Shown here one piece after another: positions 1 through 6,828 of a DNA stretch of 64,000 nucleotides. The stretch comes from Defluviicoccus sp. Lineage in GTDB: Bacteria; Pseudomonadota; Alphaproteobacteria; MPNO01. The stretch is taken from contig JAPPGP010000209.1 in NCBI GenBank assembly GCA_028821395.1, positions 1-64,000 of the forward strand, given 5' to 3'. The translations under genes were made by a program, and so were the position numbers. Each line of letters opens with the position of its first letter. Position 1 is the first letter of the stretch. The notes beneath the pieces were generated by a model that was not told the origin of the DNA, searched no databases, and saw only the letters and a list, made by a program, of their open reading frames with translations.

Positions 1-622
1 TGTCGTAGAGCAGCTTCCAGTTGCCCTTGAACTTGAGCCGGTTGGCCTCGCACAGCGCGACCTTGCCGCCGGGGTGGCGGTCGAGCCATTCGTCGAGCGG
101 GCCGGCGACGCCGCCGAGATAGTCGATCAGCGCCGGCGCATCGAGGTTGAGCGTGCCGAAGACGAAGCCGCGATAGCTCTCGACCCGCGGGACCTGGGCG
201 AGGTTGAACTTCTCGTCCGCGAAATTGTCCGCGTAGCCGTCCGGCCAGGGCACGCCGTTGAGCTTGCCCGAGTTCAGGAAGGTCCAGCCGTGATAGCCGC
301 ACTGGAAGGATTTCGCCGAGCCGCGCGCCTCGCGGCAGACGGTGGAGCCGCGATGGGTGCATCGGTTGTAGAGCGCGCGCAGCACGCCCTGGGAATCGCG
401 CACCAGGATGATCGGCCGGCGCCCGAGCTTGGTGGCGACGAAATCGTCGGGTTGCGGGATCTGGCTCTCATGGCCGAGATAGACCCAGACCGCGCCGAAG
501 ATCCTGGTCATCTCGTCCGCGAAGATCCGGGGATCGGTGTAGAGCACGCGGTGCACCCGGTCCTCGAACACCAGCCGGTCGTAATCATAGGCCGCGCCGT
601 CGATCGATGGCTGCTCGGTCAT
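1..622 (-). CDS. Rieske-type aromatic ring-hydroxylating oxygenase, alpha subunit (3' end outside window)
   Basis: This is the N-terminal 207 codons of a Rieske non-heme iron oxygenase large subunit, the terminal oxygenase that hydroxylates aromatic or amine substrates using electrons from a reductase. The [2Fe-2S] ligands are visible as C88-x-H90 (CTHRGS) and C108-x2-H111 (CGYHGW). The mononuclear-iron catalytic domain lies beyond the window edge. The ATG at 622 follows a GGGGGGAGAG ribosome-binding stretch. It begins 25 nt after the stop of the glutamine-synthetase-like gene, so it is the fourth gene of a minus-strand operon. Its N-terminus resembles the other Rieske alpha subunit at 49870. 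The substrate cannot be read from sequence; the GS-like neighbour suggests an amine or its gamma-glutamyl amide. Confidence 0.9.
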   Translation of the reverse strand, partial: MTEQPSIDGAAYDYDRLVFEDRVHRVLYTDPRIFADEMTRIFGAVWVYLGHESQIPQPDDFVATKLGRRPIILVRDSQGVLRALYNRCTHRGSTVCREARGSAKSFQCGYHGWTFLNSGKLNGVPWPDGYADNFADEKFNLAQVPRVESYRGFVFGTLNLDAPALIDYLGGVAGPLDEWLDRHPGGKVALCEANRLKFKGNWKLLYD

Positions 623-647: not shown

Positions 648-2150
648 TCAGAAGAAGTCAAAATACTCGTTCTGTTCCCACTCGGTCACCTGGTTGATCT
701 CGCGGTGGCCGCCCCGGTCGATGCCGTATTGCCGGAACCGGCCTAGCTCGGCGCGCTTCAGCGCCAGGAAGTAGTCGACGAACGGATCGCCGAACTCGCG
801 GCGGAACAGGGCGGAGGCGTCGAGGAACCCGAGCGCGGCGTCGAGGTCGGCGGGGAGCCTCTCGCGCTCGGCCTCGTAGGGGGCGAGGTCCTCGGCGGGC
901 GCGGCGAGGTTGCGGTCGATGCCGTCGAGCGCGGCGGCGATCTGCGAGGCGATGTAGAGATAGGGGTTGGCGGCGGGCTCGCCGGCGCGGTTCTCCAGCC
1001 GCGTGGCGGGGTCGCCGGCACCGCCGATCACCCGCATCATCGCGCCCCGCTGGTCGACCCCCCAGCCCGCCCGGTCGGGCGCGAGCGAGTTGGGGCGGAA
1101 GCGGCGATAGCCGTTGACGGTGGGGGTGACGAAGGCCGAGGCCGCGCCGGCGTGCTCGATCAGCCCGGCAAGCGCCGAAAGCCCCAGCGGCGACAGCGCA
1201 TGGTTGCCGTCCGCCGGCATGAACAGGTTCCCGCCGGTCGCGGCATCGACGAAGGACTGGTGGAGGTGCCAGCCGCTCGCGAAATGGCCCTCGAAGGCGG
1301 GCCGGCAGATGAAGCTCGCCGCGTAGCCGAGGCGGCGGCAGACCTGCCGCGCCGCGCTGCGGAACAGCGCCGCATCGTCCGCCGCGCGCCCCGCATCGTC
1401 GGCCGCGAAGGTGCATTCGACCTGGCCCGGTCCGAACTCGTTCTCCAGCGAGCGCAGCTTCAGCCCGAGTCCGGCGAACGCATCGGCCAGCGCGTCGAAG
1501 ACCGGCTGCATGATGTCGAGATTGGTCTCGGAGTGGTAGGAGAAGCCGGGCTCGACGGCGCTGGTCGCGAGCGGGCGGCCGCGCCGCCCCTGATGCGCCA
1601 CCTCCGCATCGCCCAGCCGGTCGTCGTCGATGCGCCGCAGGTACCACTCGATCTCGATGCCGACCAGCATGCGCCAGCCGCGCTCGGCGAGCCGCGCGCG
1701 CTGGCGGGCCAGCACCCGGCGGGTCGAGAATGGGAAGGGCTTGCCGTCGCGGAAGTACGAATCGCCCAGCACCCAGCCCGTCCCCGGCGCCCAGGGGAGC
1801 GTGCGGAAGGTCCCCGGGTCCGGCACCAGGACCAGATTGGGCGAGCCGGTCATCTCGTCGATGCCCATCCCGCCCCCCGGGGTGAAGGAGGCGAAGACCC
1901 GCCCGCCGGAGGCATCGAGGGTCGAGGTGGCGACGTTGATGTTGTAGCCGTCGACAAGCGCCTGGCAGAGCGCCGGCGGGGTGACCGCCTTGGCCCTGAC
2001 CGCGCCGTGGCTGTCGACCCAGGCGAGCCTGACCAGCCGCAGCCCGTCGGCCTCGACGCGGCGCAGGATTTCGGCCGCTTCCGCTTCCTGCCCGTCGCCC
2101 CACAGGCCGTTGCGGGCGATGAACCCCTCAGATGAAGCTCGACCCGCCAT
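648..2150 (-). CDS. Glutamine-synthetase-family gamma-glutamyl-amine ligase
   Basis: A 500-residue protein with the glutamine synthetase catalytic fold: the metal-binding segment GIEIEWYL, NEFGPGQVECTF, the active-site GWHLHQSF, and RLENRAGEPAANPYLYIA near the nucleotide/glutamate site. GS-like proteins of this kind in catabolic operons, such as those of aniline or isopropylamine degradation, ligate glutamate to an amine. True ammonia-assimilating GlnA is less likely given the operon, which contains a Rieske oxygenase and an SDR. The ATG at 2150 overlaps the end of the SDR gene by 23 nt, suggesting translational coupling; a later start is possible. The amine substrate is not identifiable. Confidence 0.85.
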   Translation of the reverse strand: MAGRASSEGFIARNGLWGDGQEAEAAEILRRVEADGLRLVRLAWVDSHGAVRAKAVTPPALCQALVDGYNINVATSTLDASGGRVFASFTPGGGMGIDEMTGSPNLVLVPDPGTFRTLPWAPGTGWVLGDSYFRDGKPFPFSTRRVLARQRARLAERGWRMLVGIEIEWYLRRIDDDRLGDAEVAHQGRRGRPLATSAVEPGFSYHSETNLDIMQPVFDALADAFAGLGLKLRSLENEFGPGQVECTFAADDAGRAADDAALFRSAARQVCRRLGYAASFICRPAFEGHFASGWHLHQSFVDAATGGNLFMPADGNHALSPLGLSALAGLIEHAGAASAFVTPTVNGYRRFRPNSLAPDRAGWGVDQRGAMMRVIGGAGDPATRLENRAGEPAANPYLYIASQIAAALDGIDRNLAAPAEDLAPYEAERERLPADLDAALGFLDASALFRREFGDPFVDYFLALKRAELGRFRQYGIDRGGHREINQVTEWEQNEYFDFF

Positions 2151-2949
2151 CGACGACGAGATTCTGACCGGTGATGTAGCCCGCCTCGTCGGAGCAGATG
2201 AACAGCATCGCCTTGGCGAGGTCGTGGATCGTCCCCTGGCGTGGCAGCGCCTGCGCCTGGGTCATGGTTTTGAACATGTGCCGCGGCACCGAGGGGCGCT
2301 CGATCTCGGTCTGCATCACCCCGGGCCAGAAGGTGTTGACGGTAATCCCGTGCGGCCCGAGCTCGCGCGCCATCGAGCGCGACATGCCGACCATCGCCGA
2401 CTTGGAGGTGATGTAGTGGAGGTAGTTGGGGCGGCCCTTCACATGGGTGCCCGACGAGACGTTGACGATCCGCCCCCAGCCCGCCTCCATCATCGCCGGG
2501 ACGACGGCGCGGGCGCACAGCATCGAGCCGGTGATATTGACATGCATCGCCGCCTTCCACTCGTCCACCGGGAGCTCCCAGAACGGCGCCATGGTGATCT
2601 TCGAGAACACGGCGGCGTTGTTGATCAGGATGTCGATCCGCCCGAAGGCCTCCAGCGTCCGGGCCGCCATCGCCTTGACCGAATCCTCGTCGCCGACATC
2701 GGTGGCAAGCGCGAGCGCCCGGCCGTGATCCCGCTCGACCTCGGCGGCGACGCGGCCCGCGTTGTCGCCGTCGATCTCGGCGATGACCGGGATCGCGCCC
2801 TGGGCGGCGAAGTAGTGCGCGTAGCCGCGCCCGATCCCCTGCCCGCCGCCGGTGACGACGACCACCCGGCCGGCGAGGCTCGCATAGCTCGCCGTCCTGT
2901 CGACGTCGATGCGGGCATAGTCGATATGGCCGATCTCGGCGTCGGTCAT
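2128..2949 (-). CDS. Short-chain dehydrogenase/reductase (SDR)
   Basis: A classical SDR of 273 residues, NAD(P)-dependent and cytosolic. The nucleotide-binding TGGGQGIG motif lies near residue 34, the structural NNAA follows near residue 111, and the catalytic serine (NVSSG) and YxxxK (YITSK) are all present. The C-terminal DGGSSFI ending is typical. The start codon overlaps the stop of the upstream selenoprotein-like gene by 4 nt (2946-2949), so the two are translationally coupled. Within this operon it probably oxidises an alcohol or dihydrodiol intermediate; that is inference from context. Confidence 0.93.
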   Translation of the reverse strand: MTDAEIGHIDYARIDVDRTASYASLAGRVVVVTGGGQGIGRGYAHYFAAQGAIPVIAEIDGDNAGRVAAEVERDHGRALALATDVGDEDSVKAMAARTLEAFGRIDILINNAAVFSKITMAPFWELPVDEWKAAMHVNITGSMLCARAVVPAMMEAGWGRIVNVSSGTHVKGRPNYLHYITSKSAMVGMSRSMARELGPHGITVNTFWPGVMQTEIERPSVPRHMFKTMTQAQALPRQGTIHDLAKAMLFICSDEAGYITGQNLVVDGGSSFI

Positions 2950-3578
2950 GCGTCGTTCCCCGCGCGCGCCCGGGCGCCGATCTCGGCGAGGAATTTCTCC
3001 AGCGTCTCGTAGGGCTGCGCGCCGACCACGCCGTACCCGCCGGCGACGAAGGTGGGAACGCCGCTCACCCCGATCTTGCGCGAGCGCGCCCAGTCGGCAT
3101 CGACCGCGTCCCGGAAGCGCCGCTCGTCCAGCACCGCGCGCGCCTCCTCCGCCGGAAGGCCGACAGCCTCGACGATGCCGAGCAACGTGTCGGCGTCGCC
3201 GATATTTCCGCCGTCCACGAAATAGGCCCGGTACAGCGCATCGTGCAGCGCCTCGCCGCCGTCGACCGTGTCGGCCCAGGCGCCGAGCTCCTGCGCGAGC
3301 CGGCTGTTATAGGTGTGGGTGCGCCGGGAATACTCGAGCCCTTCCCCGTCCATCAGCCCCTTCATGCGCGCATAGGACGCTTCGAGGTCGTAATCGCGCC
3401 CGGCGAACAGCGCCTCCAGCGTCATCCCCTCCGCCGGGGTCTCGGGGTGCAGCGGGAAGTGCACCCATTTGAGCTCGATGTCGAATTTTTGCCTGAGCTT
3501 CTCGATACGCACGGTACTGAGATAGCACCAGGGTCAGACGTAGTCGGTGAACACCTCAAGGGTGATCGGCTCGCTCAT
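2946..3578 (-). CDS. DsbA/FrnE-like thiol oxidoreductase, predicted selenoprotein (Sec15 at an in-frame TGA)
   Basis: The protein is 210 residues if the TGA at 3534-3536 is read through, the usual length for the DsbA/FrnE (2-hydroxychromene-2-carboxylate isomerase-like) thioredoxin-fold family. The ATG at 3578 has a strong GAAGGAGG ribosome-binding site 5 nt upstream. The first 14 residues (MSEPITLEVFTDYV) are beta-strand 1, then TGA, then PWCYLS. The family consensus here is CPWCY, so TGA falls exactly on the first active-site cysteine, giving U15-P-W-C18. The rest of the fold is intact, including the cis-proline region SGVPTFV. A SECIS-like hairpin lies 20 nt downstream of TGA. A conventional gene call would start at GTG 3512 and lose the active site. 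It is the first gene of the operon running to the Rieske gene. The alternative is a nonsense mutation, judged unlikely. Confidence 0.85.
3501..3521 (-). promoter_or_regulatory. Candidate bacterial SECIS hairpin of the DsbA/FrnE-like selenoprotein
   Basis: On the mRNA strand CTCAGTAC (3521-3514) pairs with GTATCGAG (3508-3501) around the loop CGUGC (3513-3509). That gives eight positions with one A-C mismatch and one G-U pair. The loop starts 20 nt after the TGA and carries G then U at loop positions 2-3, matching the known bacterial SECIS pattern (loop about 16-37 nt from UGA with an early G). SelB would bind here to deliver Sec-tRNA. The pairing was found by eye, not by folding software. Confidence 0.65.
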
Positions 3579-3861
3579 CGGGGCCTCCTTCGGGTCGAGC
3601 GGGGGCATTGTAGCGGGTGCGACCCGGGAAAGCGATTGAGGTAACGGTGGAGCATCGCGCCGAGCACAATTGGCTGGACTCGGGTGGAGACGCGATGAAG
3701 TATCGACTAGCATCGGGTCGCCCGGGAGCGGCAGAGCCCACCCATCGCGGGGATGCGCGACCGGGCGGAAGATCAAGGGCAGAAATGAAGGCGCCGGATG
3801 TCGGCAAGAGGGCCTACGCTGCGCCTGGACGGAAGACCATGACCACCTCTGACGGTGCGAC

Positions 3862-5088
3862 ATGATTACGGCGCTCAAACTATTTGACTTCAAGAATTTC
3901 GCACGAGAGACACTGGGCGCGGGACCCTTCACTGTTATTGTGGGCGCCAACGCGACCGGAAAAAGCAATATCCGCGATGCCTTTCGCTTTCTTCACGGTA
4001 TCGGTCGCGGGTATGCACTATCGGAAATCGTAGGCGGCAAACACGGGGCGGGGGGCCAACTCGAATGGGAGTCGATTAGAGGTGGTCCCCGTGAAATCAG
4101 TAGAGCCGGCAGTGGCGTCTTCGCCTTCAGCGTGGCTCTGACAGTGAAGAGTCGGAAATTTTCATATTTTGCGGGTGTGGCCTCAGAGGCATTTGGAGAA
4201 AGCGGATTCAAAATTGGCTTAGAAACTTTGGTAGTTGACAACGAGACCGTTTACCATTGGCGAAACGAAGAACTGACTCTTAATGGCGAAAAACTCGCGA
4301 AGGACACCCAGAGAATCTTTCGTCGAGACCAACCTATTTTAGCGCAGTTGCACGAAATGCAAGCAGGCAAGGACGTTGACCTACTCGTCGGTACGATTGT
4401 CGAAGCGTTCGCCAGCATGAGATTTCTCGACCTTGCACCGGATAGCATGAGACAGCCCTCCTTTCCGGGTCAGACTGTCCTGGGCGACCGTGGCGAAAAC
4501 CTCCCGTCGGTTCTCAAGGAACTTTGCGCCAAGCCGGAACACAAAGACGTCCTCATGCAGTGGACCCGTGAGCTGACTCCGATGGATATGGAAGACGTCG
4601 AATTTCCTCTCGATCCGGCCGGAAGAGTACATCTGGTGCTTCGGGAAAGAGGTAGAAAGGAGACAACCGCGTTCAGCGCCTCCGACGGAACGTTGCGTTT
4701 TCTCGCCATGCTGGCCGCTCTGCTCGGGCCCGATCCGGCGCAACTCTATTTCCTGGAAGAGATCGACAACGGCATCCACCCCTCGCGGCTCAGCTTGCTG
4801 GTCGACTTGATCGAACGGCAAACGGCCAAGGGCGGCTCGCAGGTGATCGCCACCACGCATTCACCGGAGCTGCTGACCATCATGGGAGATGTCACTTTCA
4901 ACAACACATCGGTTGTCTGTCGATTGGAAGGTGCCGATGACGCCGTAATCCGCCCGGTCGCGGAATTACCCAACGCCGCCAAGTTGAGGAAGAGCCAAGG
5001 ATTGGGACGGCTGCTGACAAGCGGTTGGATGGAAACTGCGGTCACCTTTTCCGAAGACGATGAAAATGGACGGGAAGTGTCGGAATGA
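3862..5088 (+). CDS. AAA/ABC-type ATPase (OLD/RloA-like), candidate defence gene
   Basis: A 408-residue ABC-family ATPase of the AAA_21/OLD type. Walker A is GANATGKSN at 28-36. A signature-like stretch SDGTLRFLAML, Walker B LYFLEEIDNGIHP and an H-loop ATTHSPEL follow in order. No membrane segment is seen. The gene overlaps the next one by ATGA (5085-5088), so the pair is co-translated. Base composition is visibly lower in GC than the flanks, especially 4100-4450, suggesting transfer. ATPases of this class paired with a small Toprim-fold or RloB-like protein occur in anti-phage modules such as PARIS-like systems; defence is inference. The ATG at 3862 has no strong ribosome-binding site. Confidence 0.8.
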   Translation: MITALKLFDFKNFARETLGAGPFTVIVGANATGKSNIRDAFRFLHGIGRGYALSEIVGGKHGAGGQLEWESIRGGPREISRAGSGVFAFSVALTVKSRKFSYFAGVASEAFGESGFKIGLETLVVDNETVYHWRNEELTLNGEKLAKDTQRIFRRDQPILAQLHEMQAGKDVDLLVGTIVEAFASMRFLDLAPDSMRQPSFPGQTVLGDRGENLPSVLKELCAKPEHKDVLMQWTRELTPMDMEDVEFPLDPAGRVHLVLRERGRKETTAFSASDGTLRFLAMLAALLGPDPAQLYFLEEIDNGIHPSRLSLLVDLIERQTAKGGSQVIATTHSPELLTIMGDVTFNNTSVVCRLEGADDAVIRPVAELPNAAKLRKSQGLGRLLTSGWMETAVTFSEDDENGREVSE

Positions 5089-5648
5089 ACGTCCTCGTCA
5101 TTCCCGAGGACTTCCGCAACGACCAGTACATCCTTAAGCCGCTATTCGATCGCTTGTTCAGCAACCTCGGCAAGCCCCAAGCGCGTGTCCAGGTGTGCCT
5201 GGAACCGCTGCTTGGCGGCATCCGCGAAGCGCTCAAGACCGAACGCATCCAGGAAGTCATAGACCAGTACGACGGGATGACCGACATCTTCATCCTTTGC
5301 GTCGACCGGGACGGCGACCTGGGTCGGCGAATACGCCTGAACCAGATCGAAGACGATTTCGGACCAGACCGGATTTTCCTGGCGGAGAACGCCTGGGAAG
5401 AAATTGAAACCTGGGTGCTCGCAGGCCTCGATCTGCCCAAGGACTGGATTTGGGCCGATGTTCGCGCGGAAGTTCATGTCAAGGAAGCCTATTTCGAGCC
5501 GCTTGCCGTCCAGCGTGGGGTCGCTGACGGTCCAGGCGGCGGGCGCAAGGTGTTGGCCGAGGAGGCGGCGCGCAGAATATCCGTAATCCGGCGCAAATGC
5601 CGAGGGGACTTTCACGCCTTGGCCAAACGGGTGGAGGAGGCGGTCTGA
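5085..5648 (+). CDS. Small Toprim/RloB-like (DUF4276-type) protein, partner of the ATPase
   Basis: A 187-residue protein. An acidic residue near the N-terminus (VIPEDF, E8) and a DxDxD cluster (VDRDGD, 73-78) recall the metal-binding site of Toprim-fold nucleases. The following AENAWEEIETWVLAG stretch resembles the E-x-E-x-W segment of RloB/DUF4276 proteins. It overlaps the upstream ATPase gene by 4 nt, so both are probably one functional unit, the ATPase sensing or remodelling and this protein acting as effector. Family assignment is from motif memory only; nuclease activity is inferred. Confidence 0.65.
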   Translation: MNVLVIPEDFRNDQYILKPLFDRLFSNLGKPQARVQVCLEPLLGGIREALKTERIQEVIDQYDGMTDIFILCVDRDGDLGRRIRLNQIEDDFGPDRIFLAENAWEEIETWVLAGLDLPKDWIWADVRAEVHVKEAYFEPLAVQRGVADGPGGGRKVLAEEAARRISVIRRKCRGDFHALAKRVEEAV

Positions 5649-5724: not shown

Positions 5725-6828
5725 ATGTCCGGGATCGAGTACGACACCCCCTACCACGTCCGCGAATCGCTGGTGGCGGCGCAGCGCCTGGCCTGGCGGC
5801 GCATCGCCGAGCCGGGCGCCTGGCTCGACGGGGAGCGCCGCGTGGCGGTGGCGGGCGAGGTTCGCGCGGCCGGCGACTGCGCGCTCTGCCGCGAGCGCAA
5901 GCAGGCGGTCTCGCCCTTCGCGGTCGCCGGCGAGCACGCGGCGAGCGGGCCTCTGGGCGCGGCGGAGGTCGAGCTGATCCACCGCCTGACCAGCGACCCG
6001 GGCCGGCTCCGCCGGTCCTGGGCCGAGGGGATACTCGCCGCCGGGGTGAGCGAGGAGGTCTATGTCGAGATCGTCGGCATCGTCTGCATGGTCATGATCG
6101 TCGACACCTTCCGCCGCGCGCTCGGCCTGCCGCAATTCGACCTGCCCGCGCCGGTGGCCGGGACGCAATCGGGCTACCGCGCCCCGGGAGCCCGGCGCCA
6201 CGACGCCTGGATCAGCCTGGTGCAGCCGGACGACGTGGTGGAGAGCGACGGCGACCTCTACGGCGCCGCCGCCTCGCCGGTGGTCAAGGCGCTGTCGCTG
6301 GTGCCGGAAGCCAAGCGGGCCTATTGGGATCTCGCCGAGGAGCACTATCTGCCGGGCAGCGAGATGACCGACTTCGCCACCGGAGCGCGCGCCATCGACC
6401 GCATGCAGATGGAGCTGGTCGCCGGCCGGGTGTCCGCCCTCCATCAATGCGTCTACTGAACCAGCGCCCATGCGTTCATGCTCCGTGCGAGCACAGAAGT
6501 CTCGGGCGCCGATTTCGATCTGGGCGCCGTCACCGGCGCGGCGACCGGAGACGGCGGCATCGCCGGCGGGGTGCTGCTGCACGGCTTCGCCGAGGCGGTC
6601 ACGCTCCGCGACGCGGCGCGGACGGCCGAGTTGAGGGACGCGCTGGTCGACCGGCTGGGCGAGGCGGCGATGATCGACGCGGCGGCGACCGCGGCGGCGT
6701 TCCACGGCTTCGTCCGGGTGGTGGACGCCACCGGCGCCCCGGTGGCGGGAGCGGCGGGCGGTCAGGTCACCGCGGAATTCCGCCAGGCGCTCGGCATCGA
6801 CGCGTTCTACGGCGCGCGCAACCCCTGA
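5725..6828 (+). CDS. Alkylhydroperoxidase (AhpD)-related protein, predicted selenoprotein (Sec245 at an in-frame TGA)
   Basis: Read through the TGA at 6457-6459, this is one 367-residue protein of the carboxymuconolactone decarboxylase/AhpD-related family. Around the TGA the frame gives HQCVY-U-TSAHAFMLR. The AhpD catalytic signature is CxxCx3H, so C242, U245 and H249 match it with TGA on the second cysteine. An additional N-terminal C52-x2-C55 (CALC) is present. The ATG follows GGGAGGAGCC. Conventional calling splits it into a 244-residue piece and a 116-residue piece starting at 6478-6480, neither of which has a complete active site. I recall a database family named alkylhydroperoxidase-related (seleno)protein that fits this layout. 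A SECIS-like hairpin follows. Its role is probably peroxide or thiol redox chemistry. Confidence 0.87.
6475..6498 (+). promoter_or_regulatory. Candidate bacterial SECIS hairpin of the AhpD-related selenoprotein
   Basis: TGCTC (6479-6483) pairs perfectly with GAGCA (6489-6493) around the loop CGUGC (6484-6488). The stem extends by TTC/GAA (6475-6477 with 6496-6498) across a small internal loop. The apical loop starts 24 nt after the TGA. Its five bases, and the flanking C and G, are identical to those of the hairpin in the gene at 2946-3578, although the surrounding sequences are unrelated. Found by eye. Confidence 0.68.

Follow-up and report, generated by a model that had tools for sequence, protein, structure and literature searches.

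The window analysed here, a 64,000-nucleotide stretch of Defluviicoccus DNA, contains a minus-strand reading frame for a DsbA/FrnE-like oxidoreductase in which a TGA occupies the codon of the first active-site cysteine. The locus therefore raises the question of what protein this frame encodes, and whether the TGA is a defect, is decoded as some standard amino acid or is read as selenocysteine (Sec). We hold it as close to certain that the UGA is read as Sec and that the product is a cytosolic, FrnE-type selenoprotein of the DsbA family, into which Sec would be inserted by SelB and a SECIS element, and which would act as a reductase or isomerase and not as a periplasmic oxidase. The features concerned are the following:

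2946..3578, minus strand: gene for the DsbA/FrnE-like selenoprotein (translation with TGA as Sec, Pfam DSBA, FrnE match, AlphaFold)
3534..3536, minus strand: in-frame UGA, predicted Sec15, the N-terminal residue of UPWC (TGA and Cys codons in homologues)
3584..3589, minus strand: Shine-Dalgarno sequence AGGAGG, 5 nt upstream of the ATG (sequence)

Translation of 3578..2949 on the minus strand yields MSEPITLEVFTDYV, the in-frame TGA (codon 15, 3536-3534) and PWCYLSTVRIEKL, continues to a C-terminal RARAGNDA and stops at a terminal TGA (2948-2946), the product counting 210 residues with Sec15 included. The strong ribosome-binding site of the preliminary description is borne out by the AGGAGG listed above, as is its complete, family-length domain: behind the TGA come PWCYLS and a full DsbA/FrnE domain, with Pfam DSBA (PF01323) matching residues 6-197 of the read-through protein (E 5e-35; 121 bits against a cut-off of 25.6) and Deinococcus radiodurans FrnE, from the PDB, matching residues 2-203 (phmmer, E 1.4e-28). 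The fold predicted by AlphaFold (pLDDT 92) superimposes on that of D. radiodurans FrnE with a TM score of 0.86 and an rmsd of 2.1-2.2 Å, 5coh and 5cnw being the top hits, and places the UGA position directly ahead of helix 16-31, at the start of helix 1. Cys18 is the sole cysteine of the Sec-form window protein. Because the N-terminus opens straight into strand beta-1 in the predicted structure, no signal peptide is apparent, and the protein would be cytosolic. The next start 3' of the TGA is a GTG at 3512, from which the mechanical ORF list calls a 188-amino-acid ORF without the active site, just as had been foreseen for standard gene finders. No NCBIfam model scored above its cut-off against the DsbA/FrnE-like protein, and dozens of genomes are therefore likely to carry a wrong annotation of the gene, automatic annotation truncating it or dropping its active site.

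A scan of 84,980 genomes returned 216 relatives, the best 80 of which were analysed. Sixty of these 80 carry TGA at exactly the same codon and continue with PWCY and an intact domain, showing no decay after the TGA, and the remaining 20 have TGC or TGT at this codon; these are the orthologues with U or C at position 15 by which the placing of the TGA at the first active-site cysteine was to be checked. Between the resolving and the attacking cysteine, both of which had been considered, the TGA corresponds to the latter and not to the former, being the N-terminal residue of CXXC. The TGA forms are spread over Alpha-, Beta- and Gammaproteobacteria, Rokubacteria, Planctomycetes and one Acidobacterium, and the closest among the best 80 relatives belong to four Defluviicoccus genomes (85-92% identical). 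On a tree of 81 rows the Sec/Cys label changes only twice, giving one large Cys clade, of the CPWCYLGDNR type, and a lone row, L064, nested inside a supported Sec clade (98/87).

Downstream of the gene lie three others:

2128..2949, minus strand: SDR oxidoreductase (Pfam adh_short/adh_short_C2; adjoins the orthologue in L021-L024)
648..2150, minus strand: glutamine-synthetase-like (GS-like) ligase, placed between GlnA type III and gamma-glutamylputrescine synthetase
1..622, minus strand: N-terminal part of a Rieske oxygenase alpha subunit whose gene is truncated by the start of the contig (translation MTEQPSIDG...CTHRG...CGYHGW)

The GS-like and Rieske genes do follow in the operon, as first described, but the gene order then given was incomplete, as the SDR sits between; in the window, as in L021, the selenoprotein stop overlaps the ATG of this SDR (ATGA). 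The order SDR, GS-like, Rieske is found downstream in 5/5 Defluviicoccus-type loci (window and L021-L024), the GS-like ligase, which falls below every NCBIfam cut-off, being 85-91% identical in L021-L024, where the operon runs on. This set was not found in the other Sec-form loci, and the operon setting, which had been called unusual, is a trait of Defluviicoccus that the family as a whole does not share. Across most Sec-form loci no recurrent gene neighbour was found save adjacent SDRs: at 18 loci the Sec-form gene has an SDR directly beside it, the arrangements being of four kinds (L021-L027, L029, L033, L034, L045, L076, L077, L082, L084, L088, L090 and the window), and 0 Cys-form genes have one. 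We treat this adjacency as a weak lead, because the SDRs are mutually distant, those outside Defluviicoccus being only about 25-33% identical to the window SDR.

The operon could suggest that the Sec protein serves specifically in aromatic or amine catabolism, catalysing for example a step like that of 2-hydroxychromene-2-carboxylate (HCCA) isomerase, and is not a general thiol-disulfide enzyme. The gene heads the SDR/GS-like/Rieske operon in five Defluviicoccus genomes, GS-like and Rieske genes make up aniline-type pathways (PMC11335346, PMC4539516), and HCCA isomerase and GST kappa have the same fold (ranks 11-24 of the structure search); yet outside Defluviicoccus the Sec gene has different neighbours, the redox motif UPWC is retained, and FrnE is a much closer relative in both sequence and fold, which makes a catabolic role quite unlikely. 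The protein is probably a cytosolic disulfide reductase or isomerase.

How the UGA is decoded can be judged from the sequence that follows it. Bacterial SECIS elements are hairpins directly 3' of the UGA, with an apical loop about 16-37 nt away that has G as its first or second base. At this site we found:

3497..3526, minus strand: SECIS-like hairpin whose core helix pairs 3520-3514 with 3508-3502 (folding, covariation, recoding test)
3513-3509, minus strand: apical loop CGUGC, starting 20 nt downstream of the UGA

Placement, loop distance and loop G are thus those of a bacterial SECIS. The window hairpin has a z of -1.9 to -2.0 in single-sequence folding, and the mean folding z is -0.7 in Sec forms versus 0.0 in Cys forms, a weak signal; because the folding energy of single sequences is weak, the case rests on covariation and on a synonymous-recoding test. 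At least 6 of the 7 core pairs are present in 61/61 Sec forms (the window gene plus the 60 relatives) as against 0/20 Cys forms, a complete contrast, albeit one whose counts overstate independence since the sequences are related; under synonymous recoding with each gene's own codon use, this level is expected in 1.4% of cases. Paired cells amount to 90% in the 61 Sec forms versus 32-52% in slid registers, and their 26 compensatory cells, in which both sides have changed, were equalled in 0/500 shuffles, whereas in the same columns the Cys forms are 58% paired and do not exceed their shuffles. Columns 21/31 change from U-A to C-G in 7 rows (UCAGUAC/GUAUUGA to UCAGCAC/GUGUUGA), columns 12/39 hold UA in 27 rows and CG in 16, and columns 19/33 turn from A-U to U-A in one row; in L056 a Ser codon AGT has become Cys TGT and an Ile codon ATT has become ATA, with the pair preserved. 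Arg at a helix position is always encoded by CGT (52/52), a codon used for 57/710 Arg residues elsewhere in the same genes, and the codon at the Ser site is AGT in 53/61 Sec forms, AGT being rare elsewhere in the same genes. The loop base G25 is invariant in the 61 sequences, and an A-C mismatch lies within the core of the Defluviicoccus hairpin. These comparisons indicate that the hairpin after the UGA is under selection in the Sec forms, and the search for a bacterial SECIS that had been proposed thus led to a covarying hairpin directly past the UGA. A scan of the window for further UGA-plus-hairpin sites, with a fixed geometry that does not list the shorter hairpin of the AhpD-related gene described below, returned the known site and 11 placements in implausible frames with no family support.

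The machinery for Sec is encoded in the window's genome, where all four sel genes named in the preliminary description as a check were found: a tRNA-Sec (selC) with anticodon UCA (76.7 bits), selB (463 bits), selA (565 bits) and selD (311 bits). The assembly has 5.3% listed contamination; by sequence, selA is not a contaminant, because its product is 89% identical to SelA of Defluviicoccus bin129, in line with the 92% of the DsbA-like protein. Among the genomes sampled, selA was found in 24/25 with the Sec form and was over the cut-off in 4/19 with the Cys form (Fisher p 2e-7, the genomes being related and their independence overstated), the 24 including the draft MAG of L054, with a selA broken into two pieces. 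No selA was found in the draft MAG of L042, which has the Sec form, or in the Cys-form genome of L064, whose gene is the following:

L064:5001-5597: Cys-form gene, betaproteobacterial, with TGC at the site and the hairpin lost

As this gene has TGC, the hairpin is gone and the genome yielded no selA, L064 is most simply read as a replacement of Sec by Cys, with the SECIS eroded and the machinery lost. Combining Sec and Cys forms with a covarying SECIS and with a Cys reversion that coincides with the absence of selA, the family constitutes an unusually clean natural experiment.

Since an open frame does not by itself specify the residue inserted, the UGA might also be decoded as Trp, Cys or another residue through suppression or a changed code, with no part for selenium; however, UGA is the ordinary stop of the same gene (2948-2946), the genome has a tRNA-Sec with anticodon UCA together with selA, selB and selD, the SECIS is conserved, and Cys stands in place of the UGA where selA has been lost, so that we find such decoding very improbable. 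A sequencing error or nonsense mutation, leaving either a pseudogene or a shortened gene with its start at GTG 3512, would agree with the 188-amino-acid ORF of the mechanical caller but is practically ruled out by the conservation of the TGA in 60 of the best 80 relatives, with both flanks intact and conserved and with a hairpin under selection. Overall, UGA conservation, the covarying SECIS, the sel genes and the Cys relatives argue for the selenocysteine that had been thought to fit the TGA. From what is established for Sec insertion, SelB carrying Sec-tRNA-Sec would bind the hairpin and insert Sec at the UGA; the Sec15 selenolate would attack the substrate disulfide, Cys18 would resolve the mixed selenosulfide, and glutathione or thioredoxin would re-reduce the resulting bond between Sec15 and Cys18, an external donor being expected because the protein has no further Cys and no C-terminal CXXXXC.

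The window holds a second selenoprotein gene, missing from the preliminary description and divergent from the first:

5725..6828, plus strand: AhpD-related selenoprotein gene of the CFYUT family (NF041238 over its cut-off; read-through translation)
6457..6459, plus strand: in-frame UGA (CVYU-T), with TGA at the same codon in L021, L022, L024, L098 and the paralogues
6479..6493, plus strand: SECIS-like hairpin UGCUC-CGUGC-GAGCA, downstream of the UGA at 6457-6459
3862-5648, plus strand: two-gene insert between the divergent pair, an AAA_21 ATPase and an overlapping 187-amino-acid protein without a family match

The ORF 5725-6459 ends exactly at the Sec position of NF041238 (AhpD_rel_CFYUT) and, read through to 6828, gives ...HQCVYUTSAHA...; the model scores 286 bits with the part before the UGA (5725-6459) and 417 bits with the whole gene, against a cut-off of 175. 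The two selenoproteins are genomic neighbours but unrelated by sequence family. Their hairpins have an identical apical loop, CGUGC, and the top CUC-CGUGC-GAG is present in most of the AhpD-related hairpins read (window, paralogues and relatives, one per sequence). Five AhpD-related paralogues, each with exactly one in-frame TGA, occur in the same genome and further favour the reading of UGA as Sec:

C232:18573-19622
C164:52775-53833
C164:6714-7751
C227:34388-35440
C174:5758-6810

The Defluviicoccus relatives have several AhpD-related selenoprotein genes each, an expansion of one family. One homologue, L113 (G011:C45:2698-3738), has one TGA and one more in-frame TAA and is possibly decaying. 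Defluviicoccus is a lineage of wastewater glycogen-accumulating organisms and, having several selenoproteins, it would require selenium; in the literature searched, a single paper has both "Defluviicoccus" and "selenocysteine", each word occurring in it once.

The divergent DsbA-like and AhpD-related genes are 116-164 bp apart in L021 and L022, where the two-gene AAA_21 insert is absent, and the same layout is seen in L098 (Nitrosomonadales), about 600 bp apart. The AAA_21 ATPase resembles the defence candidate PDC-M07A, hits to the defence library being weakly specific. The corresponding site of another Defluviicoccus is occupied by a different gene:

L024:2419-4896: alkane- or membrane-monooxygenase-like gene (translation judged by eye)

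The divergent site may for this reason be an insertion hot spot. One might further imagine the UXXC and CVYU proteins as a selenium redox module forming one electron-transfer chain, tied in Defluviicoccus to the SDR/GS-like/Rieske amine pathway, in which the DsbA-like protein would keep, for example, a thiol of the oxygenase or ligase reduced; we regard this as a tentative and rather unlikely proposal.

Among known systems, the closest are the DsbA-like selenoproteins of COG2761, which we take to be the FrnE group. FrnE-like selenoproteins had been thought rarely described, but they have been known since the Sargasso Sea study of 2005 ("DsbA-like protein, COG2761, UXXC", nine sequences; PMC1088965), and the GOS study of 2008 counted 63 selenoproteins and 704 Cys homologues of "DsbA 1" (PMC2398784); a later survey reported the DsbA-like selenoprotein in 41 organisms (PMC5029168), and a 2026 review has it as "DsbA-like protein form 1" (PMC13188914). 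Literature searches for FrnE as a selenoprotein or for UPWC gave nothing relevant, the family going under "DsbA-like". The published selenoprotein (COG2761/PF01323) and the window protein have in common the DSBA domain, Sec first in UXXC, a SECIS directly past the UGA and widespread Cys homologues, the likeness to published members (AACY01178397, NIP15863.1) being drawn from descriptions. The window protein shows the DSBA domain over its whole length, a UGA first in UXXC with Cys homologues, and Sec machinery in its genome; it differs from the published protein in its Defluviicoccus-like genome and SDR/GS/Rieske operon. D. radiodurans FrnE (DR_0659; PDB 5cnw, 5coh and others), about 35% identical and alike in fold, is a cytosolic thiol oxidoreductase with a CPWC site, for the first Cys of which the window protein has Sec. 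It has been proposed to act in the cytoplasm as a disulfide reductase whose site is regenerated by a C-terminal CXXXXC, a motif that some FrnE proteins do without (PMC8945050) and that is absent from the window protein. The kind of selenoprotein is therefore already known, while the Defluviicoccus operon and the divergent selenoprotein pair may be new.
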